DNA from: Dehalococcoidia bacterium
GTDB taxonomy: Bacteria > Chloroflexota > Dehalococcoidia > DSTF01 > JALHUB01
Direction: 5' to 3'
Length of the DNA: 64,000 nucleotides
Assembly (NCBI GenBank): GCA_030018455.1
Contig: JASEFU010000001.1
Location: 654,195 to 718,194 of the forward strand
Below are positions 22,534-33,977 of the stretch, piece after piece. Each line of letters opens with the position of its first letter. Position 1 is the first letter of the stretch. The translations under genes were made by a program, and so were the position numbers. A model generated the notes under the pieces. The model worked only from the letters and a program-made list of their open reading frames with translations, did no database searches and was not told where the DNA came from.

Positions 22534-23619
22534 TTACTCCCGGTCGGGGCGTGGAAGCCGCTGCTCGACGGGCAGCATCGGTGGGAAGGGGGCGTGCGGC
22601 TCCGTCTGGTACCAGTAGGCGGTGCTCGAGTAGTCGTTGCTCAGGTTGTTGGCGTGCCCGTGCTCGATGCTGACCCGGATCTCCCGCTCGAACATGATCG
22701 GGTCTTCGATGTGGAAGCGGTACATCGAGTTCTTCCCTTTCCACGGCCACTCCGGCGTGCCGCTGTAGACGGTGACGCCGTAGTAAGGGGTGCAGTACTC
22801 CTGCCGGGGCGAGAAGGCGGTGTTGAAGTAGTCCTCGGTGCCCGTGCCGTGCAGGGTCGGCGGCCAGACGTCGCCGTCGATGAAGACCATGTCGTCGCCC
22901 TCGCCGAACCAGTCGTTCTTCTCCCGCTGGAAGCAGTCGACGTTCAGGTTGCAGCCGACGTAGTGTCCTCTGCCCTTCGCTTCGAGAATGACGTAGTTCG
23001 CCTTTCCGTCGAGGTTGGGCGTCGACCACACCGTCCGTCGCAGCTCGCTGACGACGCCCGCTTCCAGGTCGTCATCGAAGCGGCCTTCGCCCCAGCCCTT
23101 AGTCGGGTTCTCGCGCCGCCACTGGGCGTGGAAGCGCCCCAGGCCGTTGTCCGGCGTGTCGTGCTCCTCGTAGTCCACGTAGTAGTAGAAGATCATCCCT
23201 GCCTCCGCTTCGTTCACCACCTCAATCCTGGCGGCGCGGGCGTAAGGCATGGGGAAGAAACAGTTAAAGCCGCGGCCGTCCTGCGGCCCCATCGACAGCG
23301 GGAGCGACCACAAGTTCTTGACGATGCCGTGGCCGATGCCGAAGAAATCGCCGATGGGAGCTTCGACGCAGGGCGACGCCGAGCCGTCCCAGTACATGCG
23401 GAGGAGCGTCGTGCGCGGGTAGAAGGGGTTGTTGCGTGTCGCCATCGTGCACCAGATGTGGCGGATTATCCCCGCGCCCTCGATGTCGCACAGCGTCGCC
23501 GTCTCGCCGCCGCGAATGATCACGAAATCGGCGTTACCGCCGCTCCTGTCCCAGCTCGACGCCCGCCGTCGCCTTCCCGGCCGCAGGCGCGCGATATCCG
23601 CCAGAGATGACCCGATCAT
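22534..23619 (-). CDS. DUF2961 / GH172-family protein
   Basis: A 361-residue protein of the DUF2961 family, part of which is now classed as glycoside hydrolase family 172 (fructofuranosidase/arabinofuranosidase-like enzymes). Recognisable segments are 'GGNADFVIIRGGETATLCDI', 'GIIRHIWCTM', 'LRMYWDGSASPCVEAPIGDF', 'GFNCFFPMPY' and 'GTGTEDYFNTAFS', the last containing the acidic pair typical of the family. There is no signal peptide, so it is probably cytoplasmic. The ATG at 23619 has AAGGAGT 7 bases upstream. It follows the GGDEF/HD-GYP gene by 76 bases on the same strand. The substrate is unknown. Confidence 0.85.
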   Translation of the reverse strand: MIGSSLADIARLRPGRRRRASSWDRSGGNADFVIIRGGETATLCDIEGAGIIRHIWCTMATRNNPFYPRTTLLRMYWDGSASPCVEAPIGDFFGIGHGIVKNLWSLPLSMGPQDGRGFNCFFPMPYARAARIEVVNEAEAGMIFYYYVDYEEHDTPDNGLGRFHAQWRRENPTKGWGEGRFDDDLEAGVVSELRRTVWSTPNLDGKANYVILEAKGRGHYVGCNLNVDCFQREKNDWFGEGDDMVFIDGDVWPPTLHGTGTEDYFNTAFSPRQEYCTPYYGVTVYSGTPEWPWKGKNSMYRFHIEDPIMFEREIRVSIEHGHANNLSNDYSSTAYWYQTEPHAPFPPMLPVEQRLPRPDRE

Positions 23620-23695
23620 CGTTCGCACTCCTTGAACGTGGAAGTCTCGACGGGAGTCTAGCAGATAGCGATCAGTGGGGCGAAGGGACAGACGG

Positions 23696-25801
23696 TCAGG
23701 CGGCAGCCTTCTCGGCCAGGCGCGCTTCCATGAGGTTGACGAAGGTGTCGACAAGCGCCGGATCAAACTGGGTGCCGGCGTTGGCGCGCAGCTCGGCGAC
23801 GGCGTGCGCATGGCTCTGCGCTTTGCGGAAGGGGCGGTCGGACGTCATCGCGGAATAGGCGTCGACGACCGCCATTATGCGGCCCAGCAAGGGGATCTCT
23901 TCGCCCTTGAGGCCGCGCGGGTAGCCCGTGCCGTCCCAGCGTTCGTGGTGGTTGATGACGGCGTCCGACACGTCGCCGGCATGCGGCACCCCTTTGATGA
24001 TGAGGTCGCTCAGTACCACGTGGCGGCGCACGATCTCCCGTTCGTCCGGCGTGAGAGGCCCGGGCTTCTTGAGGATGTGGTCGGGGATGCCTATCTTGCC
24101 GATGTCGTGGAGAAGGCCGGCGATGCGCAGAGCGCTTTGCGTGTCCTCTGACAGTCCCAGCGCCTTGCCGAGCATCATCGCGTACTCCGCGTTCTCCTCG
24201 CTGTGCGACTTCGTGTAGCGGTCCTTCTTATCGACCGCCTGCACGAGGCCGTCGAGCACGCCGAGGGTCGTGTTCTGGTAGGCGTAGAGCTCGCCGGGGT
24301 TGCGGTTGGCGAGAGTTATGGCGTCGCCGCCCGCGCGCTTGGACTCGAACAGGGAAGCGTCGACGTAGGCGAGAAGCTCCTCTTTGTTCGCGCTGTCCTG
24401 GGGGAAGACGGCTATTCCCATGCTGACGCGGAGGGGGAGGCGCTGGCCGCCGTCGAAATAAATGCCCTGGTCTATCAACCGCCGGCGTATGCGCTTCGCC
24501 ACCAGCATCGCTTTTCGCCGGTTGCTGCCGGGGGCGATGATCATGAACTTGTCGCCGCCGTGCCTTCCGACGATCATCTCGCCTCTCACCAGCGAGATGA
24601 GGATGTCCGCTACCAGCTTCAGCACTTTATCGCCGGCCGCATGCCCATAAGTGGAGTTGAACAGCTTGAAGTCATCGATGTCTATGAGAATGACCGCGAG
24701 CGGCTCGTTGCGCTTCCTGGCCCGCTCCATCTCCCTGGACAGCCTCTCCTGAAGATAGCGATGGTTGCAGAGGCCGGTCGGGGCATCGGTATTCGCCAGA
24801 TTGGAGAGTTCCTGATAGCTCTGGTAGAGGGCGAGGCTCATCTGGTTGAAGCTTCGCTTCAGCGCCCGGATCTCCTCGACCCCCTTCACCGGGATGGTCT
24901 GTCCGTACGCTCCCTTGCTTATTCTCTGCGCATGCAGGACGAGTCCGTGTATGGGCCTGGTGACGCTCCTGGCCGCGAAAATGACAACCAACGAGAACAG
25001 GAAACCTCCCAGCCACACGAGCCCGATGACCGTCATCGCCGTAGTGCGGATGCGGGTCGTGATGTCGTCGGTAGGTATGGAAACGGTAAGGGAAGCTGCG
25101 CCGGGCGGGCCGATAGGCAGATCGGTGGTCAGAATGCCGTAAGAGCCGTTTATGACGGCTTCCCCGGCGGGCGGGGGAGCCCCGGCGTCCGGCGCCGTCG
25201 CAGCCGTCGAGCCGACGGAAACTTCGCCTGCCGTCAGCGTCAATTCGGCGCCCAGGACGCCGGCGATGGTGTCGAGCATGTCCCGGTCGAGTTGCTTGCC
25301 TGCCAGCACGAGGGAGGTTGGGGGAGAGTTTTCCCGTTCGACAGGCGCGAGGCCGATAAGCCAGAGTGAGCCGTCGAACGCCGTGATAGTGGAGAAGACC
25401 GGGGTTCTCTGCGCCCTCTTAAGTTCGGCCGCCGTTACGAGCGGGAGAGGCCCCACCCCCGCGACCGACATCCCGTCGCGCGTAATCAGTTGAAGGGCGT
25501 CGACGTTGCCGACGGTCATGGCGGGAATGAAGTAGCCGTCGACGGGGGAGGTATCGCCGCCGGCGCCCGCCGCCTGGACCTCCGACGTGTTCGCGAGCGA
25601 GCTCGCGAGGCCCATTAGATCGCGCTGTTGCTGCGTCAGCAGCAGCTCAATGGCCGCGCTCCTTCTCTTGAGCTGATCGCGGACCATCTCATGCGCGTTG
25701 TGACTCGATAGTCGCAACCCGACGAACGTGCTGGCGATGGTCAGCAGCACGAAGACGGCGGCCAGCGGCAACAGGAGCTGCTTATCCAGTGTCCATTTCA
25801 T
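23696..25801 (-). CDS. Membrane sensor with degenerate GGDEF and HD-GYP domains
   Basis: A 701-residue protein. TM1 is at about 10-29, an extracellular sensor at 30-250, TM2 at 256-277, HAMP at about 280-330, GGDEF at 335-495 and HD-GYP at 510-695. The diguanylate cyclase signature reads GGDKF (415-419) instead of GG(D/E)EF, and the metal/GTP motif has 'FNSTYGH' in place of 'xNDxYGH', so cyclase activity is doubtful. The HD-GYP domain keeps His565-Asp566 in 'LLHDIGKIGIPD' and the GYP loop at 626-628 in 'RWDGTGYPRG', so c-di-GMP hydrolysis is likely. The GGDEF part may sense GTP. It may be co-transcribed with the GH172 gene. Confidence 0.93.
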   Translation of the reverse strand: MKWTLDKQLLLPLAAVFVLLTIASTFVGLRLSSHNAHEMVRDQLKRRSAAIELLLTQQQRDLMGLASSLANTSEVQAAGAGGDTSPVDGYFIPAMTVGNVDALQLITRDGMSVAGVGPLPLVTAAELKRAQRTPVFSTITAFDGSLWLIGLAPVERENSPPTSLVLAGKQLDRDMLDTIAGVLGAELTLTAGEVSVGSTAATAPDAGAPPPAGEAVINGSYGILTTDLPIGPPGAASLTVSIPTDDITTRIRTTAMTVIGLVWLGGFLFSLVVIFAARSVTRPIHGLVLHAQRISKGAYGQTIPVKGVEEIRALKRSFNQMSLALYQSYQELSNLANTDAPTGLCNHRYLQERLSREMERARKRNEPLAVILIDIDDFKLFNSTYGHAAGDKVLKLVADILISLVRGEMIVGRHGGDKFMIIAPGSNRRKAMLVAKRIRRRLIDQGIYFDGGQRLPLRVSMGIAVFPQDSANKEELLAYVDASLFESKRAGGDAITLANRNPGELYAYQNTTLGVLDGLVQAVDKKDRYTKSHSEENAEYAMMLGKALGLSEDTQSALRIAGLLHDIGKIGIPDHILKKPGPLTPDEREIVRRHVVLSDLIIKGVPHAGDVSDAVINHHERWDGTGYPRGLKGEEIPLLGRIMAVVDAYSAMTSDRPFRKAQSHAHAVAELRANAGTQFDPALVDTFVNLMEARLAEKAAA

Positions 25802-25970: not shown

Positions 25971-26858
25971 ATGAGCGCTCTGACTGTTATCGATGCTCAC
26001 GTCCATACTTATCCGTCGCCGCAAATAGGGCTGCAGGCCACGGGCGGGATGAATTTCAGCGGCTGCGCAGGCACGGTGCAGGAACTCCTGGCCCTTATGG
26101 CGGTGGGCGGCATCGATAAGGCGGTGATGGTCAACATGACGCCTGTGGCGGACATGAGAGAGGCCGCCCTCGCCTCCGGGAAGGGACCGTACGAGGAGGT
26201 GGCGCGCCAGATGGTCGAGAGGATGAAGCGGCGCAACGCCTGGACGTGTCAGGTGGGCCGCGATCATCCCAGCCTCGTGCCGTTTATCAGCCTCGACCCA
26301 TCGATGGGGCCGGACGAGGCCGCTGCGGAAGTGCGCACGCGGGCGAGCGAAGGGGCGCGGGGTATCAAACTTCATCCCTCTGCGCAGCGCTTCAATCCCG
26401 ACGACCGCAACCTGTGGCCTGCCTACGAGGAGGCGCAGTCGCTGGGGCTGCCGGTGATCTCGCACGGCGGCCTGTTCCTCGGCGACCCCGAGACGTCGGA
26501 CCACTCGCGGCCGCGGGCGTTCGAGCGGGTGCTGGCGGCGTTTCCGCGCCTCACGCTCGTCGTCGCCCACCTCGGCCAGGGCTACGTCGAAGAGTCGATC
26601 GCGATGGCGGAAAAGCACGCGAACCTCTTTTTCGACTGCTCCGCAGCCGTCAACGGCACGGTGGAGCCGCAATCGATGTCGGACGAGGAGGCGGCGGACG
26701 TAATCAGGCGGATCGGTGTTGACCGTGTGCTCTTTGGCTCGGACTGGCCGTGGTTCCACCCGCTTCGGGATGCGGAGCGCATCGAGTCGCTGCCGCTTTC
26801 CGATGCGGAAAAGAGCCTGGTCCTGGGAGGGAACGCCCGCCGCGTTCTCGGCCTGTAG
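25971..26858 (+). CDS. Amidohydrolase family protein
   Basis: A 295-residue TIM-barrel metallo-hydrolase of the amidohydrolase-2 (ACMSD-like) type. Metal ligands are visible in 'DAHVHTYP' (HxH after strand 1), 'PVISHGGLFLG' and 'FGSDWPWFHP' near the C-terminus. Members hydrolyse or decarboxylate small organic acids; the substrate is unknown. The ATG at 25971 follows GAGGGG and begins the domain at once, although the frame is open from 25887. It is the first gene of a tight operon with the selenoprotein candidate 15 bases downstream. Confidence 0.88.
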   Translation: MSALTVIDAHVHTYPSPQIGLQATGGMNFSGCAGTVQELLALMAVGGIDKAVMVNMTPVADMREAALASGKGPYEEVARQMVERMKRRNAWTCQVGRDHPSLVPFISLDPSMGPDEAAAEVRTRASEGARGIKLHPSAQRFNPDDRNLWPAYEEAQSLGLPVISHGGLFLGDPETSDHSRPRAFERVLAAFPRLTLVVAHLGQGYVEESIAMAEKHANLFFDCSAAVNGTVEPQSMSDEEAADVIRRIGVDRVLFGSDWPWFHPLRDAERIESLPLSDAEKSLVLGGNARRVLGL

Positions 26859-26873
26859 CTGGAACGGCAAGGC

Positions 26874-27755
26874 ATGGTCGATAGCTTCAAGTGGCTGCCG
26901 CCGTCGATGGCCGCGTACTACCGGGCGCGGCCGATCGAGAAGCAAGAGGTGCCCTGGGCCCCTCTGAAGAAGCCCTTGAATCAGTGCCGCTTCTCAGTCG
27001 TCACTACTGGAGGCGTGTACGTGAAGGGAAAGCAACCGCCGTTCGATGTCGAAAGGGAGCGGCGGGAGCCCTTCTGGGGGGACCCGACGTATCGGGTCAT
27101 CCCCAGGGACGTGCGGCAGGAGGAGATCGGCGTCGCGCATCTTCACATAAACACCAGCGACATCGAGGAGGACGTGAACATCGTCCTCCCCATCCACCGT
27201 TTCCTGGAGCTGGAAGAGGCGGGGGAAATCGGCTCGCTGGCGCCCAGCAGCTACTCGCTGATGGGGTTCCAGTGGAACCAGGACGAGTGGCGCGACCGCT
27301 ACGGCCCCGAGATCGCGGCCCGCATGAAAGAGGAGGCGGTGGACGCGGCGCTCATCACGCCCGTCTGACCGGACTGCTGCCGGAACGCGCCCGTGCTGGC
27401 GCGCGCAATCGAGGCGGCAGGGATCAGCACGGTCCTCTTGACGATGATGCCCTTTCTCGCCGAAGCTTCCGGAACTCCGCGCATCGTCGGGATCGAGTTC
27501 CCGTTCGGACATACCGTGGGTCACGCGCATGACCGCGACGAGCAGCTTGCCGTAATTCGCGGCGCTTTGCAGGCGCTCGAGGAAGCGCAGCAACCGAACA
27601 ACGTCGTTGAGCTGCCGTTCGAGTGGCCGGACTTCGAACACTGGAAGAGGGCGTGGCATCCGCCGGAGCCCGCGCCGGTGATAGCGTTCCTGCGGGAGCA
27701 GGCGAGGCGCCAGGCGGAAGCGCGGCGCGCAGGCAAAGACAACTCGAATCAATGA
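26874..27755 (+). CDS. GrdB-like reductase family protein, predicted selenoprotein (in-frame TGA at 27366)
   Basis: Two open frames in the same phase are separated only by TGA (27366-27368). Read through as selenocysteine they give one 293-residue protein similar to the selenoprotein B subunit of glycine/sarcosine/betaine and D-proline reductases. The TGA is residue 165 in 'ALITPV-U-PDCCRN', a UxxC redox motif at the place where GrdB has U-G-T-C. The C-terminal half 'RIVGIEFPFGHTVGHAHD' also fits the family. A SECIS-like hairpin follows 17 bases after the TGA. The frame that ends at 27755 overlaps the next start codon (ATGA), as expected for an intact operon. The protein is too short for the classical glycine reductase subunit, so it is a homologue of unknown substrate. 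The alternative is a nonsense-mutated gene; no Sec machinery lies in the window. Confidence 0.8.
27366..27403 (+). promoter_or_regulatory. Predicted bacterial SECIS element
   Basis: TGA (27366-27368), then a hairpin with a perfect 6-bp stem CGCGCC (27386-27391)/GGCGCG (27398-27403) and a 6-base loop CGTGCT. The loop starts 23 bases after the TGA, and its second base is G. Both fit the loose bSECIS rules (short distance, G among the first two loop bases), which would recruit SelB. Confidence 0.65.
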
Positions 27756-28654
27756 TACCTCCGGAGCTTCCGGCCGCTGTCCGCGCTCTCTACCCGTTTA
27801 GGAGCAACTACAAACGGGTGAACGGACGCTGGATGCATTACCTCGACGAGGGCGCCGGCGAGCCGATAGTGCTGCTTCATGGCAACCCCACGTGGTCGCT
27901 CCTCTACCGTAACTTCATCCCGCCGCTGGCGGAGCGCTATCGCGTTGTCGCGCCCGACTACGTGGGCTTCGGCCTTTCTGAGAAGCCGGCCGACGAGTCG
28001 GCGTACAGCCTGCGGAACCACACGGCGATCCTAACGTCGCTTCTGGACGGACTGGGGCTGCGGAACGTGACGCTGGTGATGCAGGACTGGGGCGGCCCAA
28101 TTGGGCTCGGCTATGCGCTGGCCCGACGCTCTAATGTCCGCACGCTGGTGATCATGAACACGTGGGCGTTCACCGACGCTTCCCGCTTTCACCGCTCGGT
28201 CTACCCGTGGCGGCTGCTGCACGCGCCCATCTTCGGGCAGTTGCTCTTGAAGCGTCGGAACTTGATGGTGGAGGCCAACCTGGCGATGGGCGTCTTCCAC
28301 AGTGAACGCATTTCGGGAGCCGTGCTGGAAACATACCGCTTCCCGTTTCCCGATTACGACTCCCGCACGGGCATCCTCGCGTTCCCGCGCTCAATACCGC
28401 TGCAGCCCGGCGACGCTGCCTATGAGGTGATGGCCCGGATATCGCGGGGTCTCGGCGACCTGGACGTGCCGGCGAAGATCATCTGGGGAGAGCAGGACAT
28501 CGTCTTCCCCGTGGAGTTAGCGTACAGGTTCCAGGCGGCGTTGCCGCAGGCGGACGAGCCCTACGTTATCCACGAGGCGCGGCATTTTCTTCAGGAGGAC
28601 GCGCCGGAGGAGATAACGGAGCAGATAATGGCGTTCCCGGCATCGATTTCGTAG
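27752..28654 (+). CDS. Haloalkane-dehalogenase-like alpha/beta hydrolase
   Basis: A 300-residue alpha/beta-fold hydrolase with the haloalkane dehalogenase pattern: oxyanion 'HGNPTWS' (43-49, Asn45 a possible halide ligand), nucleophile Asp112 followed by Trp113 in 'VMQDWGGPIG' (second halide ligand), an acid in 'WGEQDIVFP' and catalytic His278 in 'EARHFLQED'. An Asp nucleophile next to Trp is typical for hydrolytic carbon-halogen cleavage rather than for esterases. The ATG at 27752 overlaps the stop of the selenoprotein gene by 4 bases. The physiological substrate is unknown. Confidence 0.85.
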   Translation: MIPPELPAAVRALYPFRSNYKRVNGRWMHYLDEGAGEPIVLLHGNPTWSLLYRNFIPPLAERYRVVAPDYVGFGLSEKPADESAYSLRNHTAILTSLLDGLGLRNVTLVMQDWGGPIGLGYALARRSNVRTLVIMNTWAFTDASRFHRSVYPWRLLHAPIFGQLLLKRRNLMVEANLAMGVFHSERISGAVLETYRFPFPDYDSRTGILAFPRSIPLQPGDAAYEVMARISRGLGDLDVPAKIIWGEQDIVFPVELAYRFQAALPQADEPYVIHEARHFLQEDAPEEITEQIMAFPASIS

Positions 28655-28663
28655 GAGCAGACG

Positions 28664-29068
28664 ATGGAGTTTCTAGACGCGCCGGATGTGGCGCTGGAGC
28701 AGTACCGCAGGGAGCTGGTGCTGCGGGAGCCGAGTTTGCGCCACTACGAGGAGTTCGGCGAGTTCATGCGCCGTCATTTCCGGCTCACGCCGGCGGATGT
28801 CGCTGCCAGACGCAGGGTCTATTTCCGATCAGACGGGGGGCGTCTGTACGAGATCGCGTTTCTCGGCGGCACGGGGGGCGCTTTTCCGAGCGGCCTCGAG
28901 ATCTTCCTCCTGATGCCAGAACTGGAAGCGACGCCGGAGCAGGACGACATCGACGCCGATATCTGGTTTTTCCTCCGGCGCGTCGTCGAGGGGGTAGGCG
29001 GCGAGTGGACGCTGGAGCGGTTCAACCGGATGGTGGGACTGTACGGGCTGCCGTTCACGCCACCCTGA
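28664..29068 (+). CDS. Hypothetical protein in the dehalogenase operon
   Basis: A 134-residue protein of no recognised family. It is predicted to be helical at the start ('ALEQYRRELVLREPSLRHYEEF'), with a central beta-rich part ('RLYEIAFLGGTGG', 'GLEIFLLMPELEA') and a helical end. There is no signal peptide and no cysteine. AGGAG lies 6 bases before the ATG. It starts 9 bases after the hydrolase and 36 bases before the nitroreductase, so co-transcription is very likely. Confidence 0.75.
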   Translation: MEFLDAPDVALEQYRRELVLREPSLRHYEEFGEFMRRHFRLTPADVAARRRVYFRSDGGRLYEIAFLGGTGGAFPSGLEIFLLMPELEATPEQDDIDADIWFFLRRVVEGVGGEWTLERFNRMVGLYGLPFTPP

Positions 29069-29104
29069 GCTGGGCTTGGCGGCCGCGGATGAGGAGGAGC
29101 GAGC

Positions 29105-29620
29105 ATGGAATTCGCAAAGCTGATCGATGAGAGACGCTCGGTGCGCGCCTATCAGCAGAGGGAGGTGGAAGACGACAAGCTGCGGCTGGTGCTCCACGCC
29201 GCGAACCGCGCGCCCTCCGCCGGAGACCTGCAAGCGTACGGCATAGTCGTTGTGCGGGACGGGCAGGCGAAGCGCGCGCTCGCCGGCGCCGCCTACGACC
29301 AGCTTTTCGTGAGCGAGGCGCCGATCGTGCTCGTGTTCCTCGCCCGGCCGTCGCTTTCGGCGGTGAAGTACGGCTCGCGGGGGAGGGCGCTGTACTGCGT
29401 TCAGGACGCGACGATCGCCTGCGCCTACGCGCAGCTCGCAGCGCACGATCTGGGACTGGGCGCGTGCTGGGTGGGCGCCTTCCGCGACGAGGCCGTTTGC
29501 GAGATTGTGGGGTGCTCCTCGGACGAGCTGCCGGTGGCGCTGCTTCCGCTCGGCTATCCGGCGGAGAGGCCGGAACCGACGCCTAGGCGGCGGCTGGAGG
29601 AGCTGGCGCGAAGCATGTGA
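29105..29620 (+). CDS. Nitroreductase family protein
   Basis: A 171-residue FMN-dependent oxidoreductase of the nitroreductase fold. 'IDERRSVRAYQQREVEDDKL' holds the Arg/Ser FMN phosphate contacts, 'APSAGDLQAYGIVVV' the next FMN loop, and 'LGACWVGAFRDEAVCEIVG' plus 'LLPLGYPAE' complete the typical C-terminal pattern. Members reduce nitro, quinone or flavin substrates with NAD(P)H, and one branch removes iodine from tyrosines. The function in this operon is unknown. A GGAGGAG Shine-Dalgarno precedes the ATG. Confidence 0.88.
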   Translation: MEFAKLIDERRSVRAYQQREVEDDKLRLVLHAANRAPSAGDLQAYGIVVVRDGQAKRALAGAAYDQLFVSEAPIVLVFLARPSLSAVKYGSRGRALYCVQDATIACAYAQLAAHDLGLGACWVGAFRDEAVCEIVGCSSDELPVALLPLGYPAERPEPTPRRRLEELARSM

Positions 29621-29913: not shown

Positions 29914-31947
29914 GTGGGCGGAGGCATGCAGCAACCGGAATTACACGACCTCGAACCGAATCGGCGTTGGCGCGTTTTGGTGTTCCTTCTTGCCCTTGTC
30001 GCGGCGGCTGTTTGCGCCTTCCTCGTGCAGCGCTTCTTCTTCGCCGAAGGCGGCACGAAAGAACAGCCCTTCGAGCCCTACACCGTCGGCACCATGACCC
30101 TTCGCGCCCAGATGATCACCTCCGGCATCGCCGTCGCCGAAAACGAGGCCGCCCTCACCTTTCCCGTGCCCGGCCGGGTGAAGGAGATCCACGTCAAGCT
30201 CGGCGACGAGGTCAAGGCGGGGCAAACCCTGATCTCCATCGAGGCCGATGAGCTGGAAAATGCAGTGAAAACCGCCCAATCGGGCCTCGAGGCGGCGCGC
30301 CTCCGTCTCCGAAAACTGAAAGAGGGCGCTACCACCGCCGAACTCAGCGCCGCCGAGGACGCCGTCACAAGCGCGCGCAGCGCTCTCACCAAGGCCGAGA
30401 ACGACCTCTCCGATGCGCTCGACCCCCCGGACGAACCGGAGCTGACCGCAGCCGAAGAGGCCGTCGCCCGCGCCAAGGCAGCGCTCTCGTCCGCTGAAAG
30501 CCAGCTCAACACCCTCCTGAACGGCGCCTCCGACGCCGACCTCGCCGCCGCCGAAGCAAGAGTCGTCGAAGCGGAGACCGCGCTGTCGCGGGCGATCAGG
30601 ACGCGCGACAACGCCGAAGAAGACCAGGAGAACTCCCAGAGCGCCTTCGAGTACGCCGCCGAACGCTACTGCGAGGTCGAAGGGTCCCTTCAAGACGTCT
30701 GCATCGATATGGAAAGCAATGACTACCAGGAGCCGCTCACCAGCGACCAGATAGACGACCTCCTCGAACACATCCAGCCGGAGCCGACCCCCACCAAAAC
30801 GCCGGGACCCACACCCACCCACACCCCCACCGCTACCCCCGTACCCACCGGCGAACCGACTCCTACCCGCACGCCCCGGCCCACCGCCGAGCCCCTCACC
30901 GATCTTGAAGAAGTCACGCGCGACCTCGTCTACGCCAGCACCAACTACCGCAACTCCATCACGTCGCTCGAGACGGCTGAGGAATCGGTGCTGACGGCGG
31001 AAGCGGCGCTCTACGCCGCCGAGCTCGCGCTGGACGAGCTGAGGGAGGGCGCCTCGGCCGAAGACATCGCCGCTGCCGAGGACGCCGTGGCGTCCGCGCG
31101 CGCCGCTCTCGCCGCCAGCCAGGCCGCCCTCGACGAACTTGTCTTCGGCCCCACCGAACGCACAATCGCCAATCTGCGCGCGGCCGTAAACTCCGCGCGC
31201 GCCGGCCTCGAAGCCGCCATCGACGCCCGCTCGGAACTGCTCGACGGCGCGACCGCTACCGAGATGGCGCTCCAGGAGGAAGAGGTGCGCCAGGCGGAAC
31301 TCGCGCTTGAAAAGGCGCAGAAGGCGCTCGACGACACACGCCTCGTCTCGCCCTTCGACGGCGTCGTCGCCGCTCTGTCAGTCAAGGTGGGCGAATTCGT
31401 TTCCACCGCTTCCGCCACCCCCGCCGTCACCATCCTGACCCCCGGCCTGCTTGCCTTCGAGCTCAACGTCGGCGAAACAGAGCTGCCAAGCATCAAGGTT
31501 GGTCAGGTGGGAGGCGTCATCTTCGATGCCATACCCGGCAAGGTCTATCCCGTGCGCGTGTACGCGGTCGGCCTCGCGCCCGAAACGCAACAAGGAGTCA
31601 TCATCTACAAGGTCAAGTGTCAGATACTCGGCGACATCAATCAGGGCGAGGGCCCCAGGCCGGCGCCAGGAATGAACGGTTCCGCGTCGATCATTACCGA
31701 GCAACGGGCCGACGTTGTCGCTGTGCCCAGCGCGGTCATTCGGAGCCGGGGAGGAGAAAAGGTGGTCGAGGTCGTGGTCGATGGAAAGGTTGAGATGAGG
31801 CCTGTCCAGACCGGACTGAGCGACGGCGACAACACCGAGATAACCAGCGGCCTCAGTGTAGGTGACGTGGTGGCTCTGCGCGGGGCGGCGGCGGCGAAAA
31901 ACGCAGGCAATGAGAACAAGGAGGAGCTGCCCGAAGGGATCCGATAA
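29914..31947 (+). CDS. MacA/HlyD-type efflux adaptor with Pro/Thr-rich insertion
   Basis: A 677-residue membrane fusion protein. TM helix at about 23-40 ('[19 protein letters not shown]'), then the first half of the lipoyl domain ('[24 protein letters not shown]'), a very long alpha-helical coiled-coil region (about 105-475), the second lipoyl half ('[17 protein letters not shown]'), a beta-barrel and a membrane-proximal domain. Inside the coiled coil, at about 289-330, lies a low-complexity (TP)n-rich stretch. Normal MacA proteins are about 370 residues. The start is uncertain: the GTG at 29914 or the ATG at 29926; neither has a good Shine-Dalgarno. It is operonic with the ATPase and permease that follow. 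Confidence 0.88.
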
Positions 31948-31967
31948 GGAGTGGTTGAGAAGGCAGC

Positions 31968-32702
31968 ATGATCAGGCTTACCGATATCAGCAAGGTCTAC
32001 CGGACAGGCGACGTTCCGATCTACGCCCTCCGCTCCATCAGCCTGGAGATACAGGACGGCGAGTTCGTGGCCATAATCGGGCCCTCCGGTTCGGGCAAGT
32101 CGACGGTCATGAACATCATCGGATGTCTCGATGTCCCTTCGGCGGGGAAGTATTATCTGGACGGGTACGAGGTCAGCACCCTTGGCGACAACGCCCTCGC
32201 CACCATCCGCAACCGGAAGATCGGCTTTGTCTTCCAGAGCTTCAACCTCCTGCCGCGCCTCACCGCCGTCGAGCAGGTCGAAGTGCCCCTCACGTACCGC
32301 GGGACCCGAAACCGGCGCCGGATAGCGAAGCAGGCTCTCGCCGACGTCGGCCTCGCGAACCGGATCCATCACAGGCCCACGCAACTCTCCGGCGGCGAGC
32401 AACAGCGCGTCGCCATCGCCCGCGCCATTGTCGGACGGCCCTCCATTTTGCTTGCTGACGAGCCGACCGGCGCGCTGGACACGGCTACCAGCGTCGAAAT
32501 AATGCGCATCTTCGAGAGCCTCAACCGTGAGCTGGGCATGACCGTCGTCTTCGTCACCCACGACATGGAAGTGGCCGACCACACCCGCAGGATCGTTAGA
32601 TTGCGTGACGGACAGATTGTCGGAGACGAGGCGAACTTTCCCAGGCCCATCCCCGCCCCCGAGCCCGTCGGGCAGGCGGTCGGTGGTATGGAACCCTTCT
32701 GA
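31968..32702 (+). CDS. ABC transporter ATP-binding protein (MacB/LolD type)
   Basis: A 244-residue ATPase of the MacB/LolD/FtsE group. Walker A is 'GPSGSGKST', the Q loop 'GFVFQSFNLLPRLTA', the signature 'LSGGEQQRVAIARAI', Walker B 'ILLADEPTGALD' and the H switch 'VVFVTHDMEVADH'. It starts 20 bases after the adaptor with AGAAGG in front of the ATG. It powers the MacB-like permease encoded next, probably for export of a peptide, lipid or drug. Confidence 0.95.
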   Translation: MIRLTDISKVYRTGDVPIYALRSISLEIQDGEFVAIIGPSGSGKSTVMNIIGCLDVPSAGKYYLDGYEVSTLGDNALATIRNRKIGFVFQSFNLLPRLTAVEQVEVPLTYRGTRNRRRIAKQALADVGLANRIHHRPTQLSGGEQQRVAIARAIVGRPSILLADEPTGALDTATSVEIMRIFESLNRELGMTVVFVTHDMEVADHTRRIVRLRDGQIVGDEANFPRPIPAPEPVGQAVGGMEPF

Positions 32703-32711
32703 TTTCCGCCG

Positions 32712-33977
32712 GTGAACGTTCTCGATACGATCCCCATCGCGATTCGCGCCCTGGCCGCCAACAAGCTGCGGTCGTCGCTCACCATGTTGGGCATCATCAT
32801 CGGCGTGGGCGCCGTCATCGCTTTGATGGCCGCCGGTCAGGGCGCCCAAAAGGGCATCACCGACCGCATCAGAGGCCTGGGCAGCAACCTTCTCTTCATC
32901 CGCCCCGGCCAAGCCCAGGATGCTAGCGGAAATCCCACCGGGGGAAGCGTCTATACCCTGGTGAGCGCCGACGGCGACGCGATCAACGATCCGGAGCGGT
33001 TCCCCTATGTGGAGAGCGTCACGTCTCAGGTGTTCTTTGAGGCCCCCGTCAGCAGCGGCGGGAACAGCATGACCGTCAACTGCACGGGCGTCACCCCTGA
33101 CTACCAGTTCACGCGCGACCACTACGTCGCCAGGGGGCAGTTCATCAGTGACGAAGACGTAACCCGAAAGGGTCTTGTGGCGGTCCTGGGAGCCAACGTG
33201 GCCGAGGAGTTGTTCGGCGATATCGACCCCATCGGCAAGCAAGTCAGGATGACGGTGGGGGCGTTCCGCATCTACTTCAGCTTCAGTTTTCGCGTCATCG
33301 GCGTGATGGAGCGCAAGGGCGCCACCGCCACCGGCGACGAAGACGACCTCATGCTCATCCCTCTGCCGACGATGCAGGCGCGCATCCCGTACATCAGACA
33401 TCCCAAGGGGCTAAGCAACGTCCATCAGATCACGGTAAAGGTGACCGACTCAAGCAAATTCGAGCAGGCCAAGGAGGAGATAGCGGCGCTACTGAGAGAA
33501 CGCCATAACGTCACCAAAGACGATTTCACAATCCGCTCTCAGGAAGACCTTGTGGCCACAGTCACCGAAGTCTCCCAGACCCTGACTGTCCTCCTCGGCA
33601 GCATAGCCGGCATTTCTCTCGTTGTGGGCGGCATCGGCATTATGAACATCATGCTCGTTTCCGTGACTGAGAGGACGCGCGAGATCGGCATCCGCAAGGC
33701 GCTCGGGGCCAAGAGGGCGGACATCCTCTTTCAGTTCATCGTGGAAGCGTTGACGGTCACACTGCTCGGAGGGATGACAGGCATCCTCCTCGGCGTCTTG
33801 GCGGCGCGTCTCGCCGACGGGCAGCACGTCTTTGGCCGTGACCTCCACACTGCCGTGACGCCGTTCTCTATCATCGTCGCCTTCACCGTCTCCGTCGGCA
33901 TCGGGCTGTTCTTCGGGATCTATCCCGCATACAGCGCCTCGCGCCTGAACCCGATAGAGGCCCTCCGTCACGAGTAG
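32712..33977 (+). CDS. ABC transporter permease (MacB type)
   Basis: A 421-residue permease. The N-terminal TM ('LTMLGIIIGVGAVIALMAAG') is followed by a large extracellular MacB-PCD domain (about 45-275) and three C-terminal helices with the FtsX signature 'IMNIMLVSVTERTREIGIRKALGAKRADIL'. The start is GTG. In E. coli MacB the ATPase and the permease are fused; here they are separate genes, as in many monoderm bacteria. No outer-membrane TolC gene is nearby. Confidence 0.95.
   Translation: MNVLDTIPIAIRALAANKLRSSLTMLGIIIGVGAVIALMAAGQGAQKGITDRIRGLGSNLLFIRPGQAQDASGNPTGGSVYTLVSADGDAINDPERFPYVESVTSQVFFEAPVSSGGNSMTVNCTGVTPDYQFTRDHYVARGQFISDEDVTRKGLVAVLGANVAEELFGDIDPIGKQVRMTVGAFRIYFSFSFRVIGVMERKGATATGDEDDLMLIPLPTMQARIPYIRHPKGLSNVHQITVKVTDSSKFEQAKEEIAALLRERHNVTKDDFTIRSQEDLVATVTEVSQTLTVLLGSIAGISLVVGGIGIMNIMLVSVTERTREIGIRKALGAKRADILFQFIVEALTVTLLGGMTGILLGVLAARLADGQHVFGRDLHTAVTPFSIIVAFTVSVGIGLFFGIYPAYSASRLNPIEALRHE

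Follow-up and report, generated by a model that had tools for sequence, protein, structure and literature searches.

Do five tightly spaced genes of a Dehalococcoidia bacterium, one of which encodes a selenoprotein, form one dedicated pathway, or are they a local assemblage around a protein with a story of its own? The genes lie on the + strand at positions 25971-29620 of the window, by which we mean the whole stretch of 64,000 nucleotides that was analysed. A preliminary description had suggested that their products might jointly process an organic compound activated by halogenation or in some other way. Here, we examined the coding and regulatory signals of the cluster, the nature of the selenoprotein and the neighbourhoods of its homologues in other genomes.

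Layout of the cluster

The five open reading frames follow each other in tight series, with gaps of 15, -4, 9 and 36 bases; the ORF positions confirm the grouping on one strand given in the preliminary description, and the gene identities proposed there hold in family scans. The first gene (25971-26858, +) encodes a metal-dependent hydrolase of the Amidohydro_2 family of 295 aa (PF04909, 2.8e-41) with the motifs DAHVHT, KLHP, ISHGG, AHLGQG and GSDWPW. It is followed by the gene for a PrdB-like selenoprotein of 293 aa (26874-27755, +; TIGR04483, PF07355), in which selenocysteine (Sec) at position 165 belongs to the sequence U-P-D-C-C, a UxxC motif. The third gene (27752-28654, +) encodes an alpha/beta hydrolase of 300 aa that matches models of haloalkane dehalogenases (HLDs) at 7.8e-61 and has a pentad like that of HLD subfamily III; its start shares the tetranucleotide ATGA with the stop of the Sec gene. 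The series is completed by an orphan ORF of 134 aa (28664-29068, +), to which the family scans assigned no family, and by a nitroreductase-fold flavoprotein of 171 aa (29105-29620, +; PF00881 Nitroreductase, 1.5e-27).

Purine-rich, Shine-Dalgarno-like stretches are located 5' of genes 1, 4 and 5. The search for promoter-like sites in the five-gene region found none and terminator-like sites were not more frequent there than in shuffled sequence, so the borders of the unit are not fixed by sequence signals. The five genes are probably co-transcribed, as judged from their spacing alone. Scans of the window for Rfam families and tRNAs gave no matches. Upstream of the cluster, a DUF2961 protein (2.4e-86), whose function is unknown, is encoded at 22534-23811 on the - strand. 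Downstream, at a distance of about 290 bases, genes for HlyD-type, ABC ATPase and MacB-type proteins follow on the same strand (29914-33977). An HlyD-like fragment was also found downstream in the sister genome introduced below, beyond an opposite-strand gene for a thiamine-pyrophosphate enzyme.

The selenoprotein and its family

Gene 2 reads through an in-frame UGA at 27366-27368 (+), within the motif P-V-U-P-D-C-C. This UGA very probably encodes selenocysteine, because TGA is kept at the Sec165 codon in 83 of 83 homologous loci, a hairpin behind it is conserved beyond the expectation from synonymous codon choice, and the genome possesses both a tRNA-Sec (74.7 bits, above the Rfam cut-off) and SelB (318.5 bits). 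The SECIS-like hairpin (27386-27403, +) begins 17 bases past the UGA and consists of the stem CGCGCC/GGCGCG and the loop CGTGCT. Across 79 distinct sequences it forms on average 5.73 of 6 pairs, compared to 4.10 +/- 0.11 in a null model in which codons were redrawn synonymously (200 draws, maximum 4.38), and registers slid along the sequence yield 1.1-3.3 pairs. For the window sequence taken singly, the free-energy z-score of the hairpin was weak (-1.27).

Homologues of the Sec protein occur in 103 of the 294 genomes of the class that were searched, and nearly all of them carry one TGA. A collection of 80 named loci, at 41-69% identity, extends the family to Chloroflexota, Acidimicrobiia, Dormibacterota, Desulfobacterota and Nitrospinota, plus one record named Bacillota. 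U-P-x-C was invariant across the loci examined, while the residue that follows varied. Genomes of genus g32 have up to five PrdB-like, TGA-containing paralogues each, some of them as tandem triples (e.g. G073:C27:8889-13266).

The pyruvoyl partner of the GrdE/PrdA type (PF09338) was not detected in a profile search of the bacterium's own genome, nor in any of the 34 class genomes with a strong Sec homologue, this genome included. The same model found PF09338 in 12 of the 294 class genomes, which serve as a positive control for the negative result in the own genome. With so few positives, chance alone could account for its absence from the Sec clade (P = 0.22), and genes missing from draft genomes can be assembly gaps. 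Judged from these genome sequences, the absence nevertheless counts against membership in PrdB or GrdB, whose known reaction depends on the partner.

An AlphaFold prediction for the Sec protein, calculated with 51 sequences, reached a pLDDT of 95.8 and places U165 at a strand-helix junction. Searches with the model gave no useful fold assignment, which is not evidence of a new fold: Foldseek returned nothing at E <= 0.001 and the VIA comparison gave middling scores (Z <= 8.2) to common Rossmann-like folds. A phosphotriesterase-like identity, considered on the basis of PDB sequence matches, was dropped since these matches were weak and judged to be due to chance.

To compare their surroundings, 40 anonymous and 80 named Sec-gene neighbourhoods were used; the sets overlap. 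The partners of the Sec gene vary between lineages and no neighbour is conserved across the family. The Pfam families of recurrent or adjacent partners include glycoside hydrolase 1, acetyltransferase-SCP2, 4HBT thioesterase with PhzF, FAD oxidase, 2-hydroxyacid dehydrogenase, aminotransferase, a hydrolase-AMP-ligase fusion, GDPD, LysE and aldehyde ferredoxin oxidoreductase, among others. The best-conserved same-strand partnership in any lineage compared was the arrangement LysE-4HBT thioesterase-PhzF-Sec of soil Chloroflexota and Dormibacterota (L155, L158, L160, L161, L163, L164 and L165), in which stops and starts often overlap or lie a few bases apart.

The Sec protein is thus a member of a widespread, uncharacterised clade of PrdB-resembling selenoproteins without the usual partner. 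Sequence comparison shows the conserved Sec codon with its hairpin, the absence of the pyruvoyl partner and the lack of a neighbour conserved throughout the family. With moderate confidence, we interpret the locus as a lineage-specific, probably co-transcribed cluster around this orphan protein, which would work alone as a UxxC selenol/thiol reductase. By analogy, the most likely mechanism is that the Sec165 selenolate, situated at a helix start, makes a nucleophilic attack on a small molecule, at an electrophilic carbon or heteroatom, that Cys168 resolves the resulting selenoether or selenenyl-sulfide, and that a thioredoxin-type system re-reduces the protein. This scheme is proposed on account of the UxxC motif and of how GrdB relatives work, among them FarB with its proposed cleavage of a C-F bond (PMC10838667).

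A less probable, though serious, alternative is that the Sec protein is a general redox protein of the thiol-disulfide or peroxide type and does not act on a small organic substrate. The invariant U-P-x-C with variable neighbours, the stand-alone gene and the occurrence in lineages unlikely to run Stickland fermentation are consistent with such a role, as is the presence in L106 of an upstream, opposite-strand gene with a redoxin/glutaredoxin domain, in a cluster common to L108 and L113. Against it, many residues outside the motif are invariant in the family (W68, G69, D70, R74, H89, H91, D100 and R203), suggesting a specific substrate pocket, and no thioredoxin-like match was prominent among the structural hits, all of which were weak.

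Amidohydrolase, nitroreductase, hydrolase and orphan ORF

The preliminary description had named co-conservation of the five genes across neighbourhoods as the test of its proposal, and the outcome went against it. The five genes occur together in none of the other neighbourhoods, and at most three of the five recur, in a single genome. This locus, the only such one of 81 neighbourhoods, is that of G158 (L047; its contig is evidently identical to that of L086, Dehalococcoidia bacterium PFL39), in which amidohydrolase, Sec protein and nitroreductase are encoded in the same order and on the same strand with identities of 70%, 69% and 65%. As G158 belongs to another genus and is the single other genome of the window's family in the comparison, conservation at the family level amounts to one comparison.

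Do these three genes constitute a small functional module, in which the nitroreductase provides electrons from NAD(P)H and FMN or shares the substrate? Apart from their common order in two genera, amidohydrolase orthologues (at least about 53% identity) were detected in ten class genomes from four families, nine of which carry the Sec gene (hypergeometric 1.2e-8, a figure that ignores kinship). Conversely, at the eight amidohydrolase loci outside the window's family, from three families, the gene was never beside the Sec gene; seven of the eight loci had a radC-like gene nearby, and at six of those seven the amidohydrolase gene came directly after ribosomal protein genes. Co-occurrence leaves room for a link between amidohydrolase and Sec protein beyond the window's family, but is suggestive at best. 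Two further, unrelated loci, L097 and L116, also have a nitroreductase-family gene next to the Sec gene and on its strand. In view of the small numbers, we did not accept this adjacency as proof of a link; furthermore, nitroreductases are common, and those of L097 and L116 are only distantly related and differently arranged. A module is therefore a doubtful reading, although within the preferred interpretation of a stand-alone reductase the amidohydrolase and nitroreductase of this one family may take part in the process that the reductase serves.

Rather unlikely, too, is a bolder version according to which this widespread selenoenzyme family would perform reductive carbon-heteroatom cleavage of the PrdB/GrdB type without a pyruvoyl partner, in lineages where Stickland fermentation is unlikely, coupled here to a substrate-making amidohydrolase and a nitroreductase-type flavoprotein.

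The remaining two genes set the window apart from its sister genome. In G158, a gap of 35 bases separates the Sec and nitroreductase genes at the place where the window has the hydrolase gene and the orphan ORF. Both are absent beside the Sec gene there and were not found in the window's order at any other Sec locus. With one sister genome to compare, the simpler reading is that both were inserted in the window's lineage, because no homologue of the orphan ORF was convincing in either of two genome draws (294 and 390 genomes) and the nearest relatives of the hydrolase (44-47% identity) are sited away from the Sec gene. The two genome hits of the orphan ORF (E 5e-4 and 8.5e-4) were weak and partial and judged to be due to chance, and the protein folded alone gave no confident fold (pLDDT 56). 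Both genes look like later, genome-specific additions between the Sec and nitroreductase genes.

Alpha/beta hydrolase genes are same-strand neighbours of the Sec gene in eight cases. We rejected the idea that this excess reflects one partner, as at least three different proteins are involved: the HLD-like hydrolase of the window, hydrolases of 240 aa and fusions of an alpha/beta hydrolase with an AMP ligase (837-840 aa). The fusions were found in Anaerolineae (L106, L108 and L113), where they start 18-21 bases past the Sec homologue (e.g. L106:8898-11408), and are presumably OleBC-like, judging by domain order.

The window hydrolase possesses the complete pentad N45, D112, W113, D249 and H278. 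Its best solved relatives in a PDB sequence search were 8ooh (7e-46) and 8ckp (3e-45), which we take to be structures of DhmeA. All five residues correspond to the catalytic pentad described for DhmeA of HLD subfamily III (PMC10503415), a likeness shared with OleB. The window hydrolase scored below the cut-off of every NCBIfam haloalkane dehalogenase model (206/241, 192/265 and 190/466 bits, score/cut-off). Subfamily III enzymes have low dehalogenase activity, the name 'haloalkane dehalogenase-like' is preferred for them, and the beta-lactone decarboxylase OleB is among the putative members (PMC10503415). Because the subfamily dehalogenates poorly and includes OleB, the pentad, as a sequence feature, does not indicate a halogenated substrate, and the possibility of such a substrate raised in the preliminary description finds no specific support.

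It is accordingly very improbable that the five genes are dedicated to a single pathway acting on a halogenated or activated organic compound, with hydrolysis by the HLD-like enzyme, reduction by selenol and flavin, and cleavage by the amidohydrolase. The tight spacing on one strand and the complete pentad would fit it, as would the cleavage of the C-F bond of fluoroacetate proposed for the GrdB-like FarB/FarE system (PMC10838667); yet the genes are not co-conserved, with hydrolase and orphan ORF missing beside the Sec gene in the sister genome, HLD-III members show low dehalogenase activity, and the partner of the proposed fluoroacetate reductase is GrdE-like, from a family absent here. What stands of the original proposal are the gene identities and their tight linkage, not the joint pathway.

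Relation to known selenoproteins

The weakest reading, that the Sec protein is a subunit of a D-proline (PrdB) or glycine-type (GrdB) reductase, is already contradicted: its UxxC motif and best family, TIGR04483 at 2.2e-54, favour it, but the score of 184.4 bits is below the curated equivalog cut-off of 300, the GrdB models are matched in their C-terminal half alone (about positions 210-430), and PF09338, although found in 12 other genomes, is missing wherever strong homologues occur in the class. TIGR04483 was matched by 51 of 51 clade members, whereas the match to PF07355 reached 6.6e-11 (42.5 bits).

In the marine data sets from the Sargasso Sea and Global Ocean Sampling, UxxC PrdB-like selenoproteins belong to the selenoprotein families of highest abundance, and 'PrdB' was described as proline reductase (PMC1088965, PMC2398784). 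As UxxC PrdB-like selenoproteins, they resemble the protein studied here, and we infer from the description that they may belong to the same orphan clade. Since PrdB is the best model for this clade and yet the partner needed for the reaction is missing, the annotated function of a common environmental selenoprotein becomes doubtful. The operon as such is ordinary and matters little; the orphan selenoprotein family is moderately interesting.

Compared with PrdB (TIGR04483), the Sec protein falls under the curated cut-off, lacks the PrdA-type pyruvoyl partner and has extra N- and C-terminal segments; shared features are the C-terminal GRDB-type domain, the UxxC motif with Sec and a core of about 240 residues. 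It has neither the full-length GrdB architecture (about 431 aa) nor a GrdE partner. From GrdB, GrdF, GrdH and the FarB/FarE system (PMC10838667) it differs by the match restricted to the C-terminal half and the absence of a GrdE/FarE-type partner, while it resembles them in the homologous selenoprotein domain and in the proposed chemistry, with Sec as the nucleophile.
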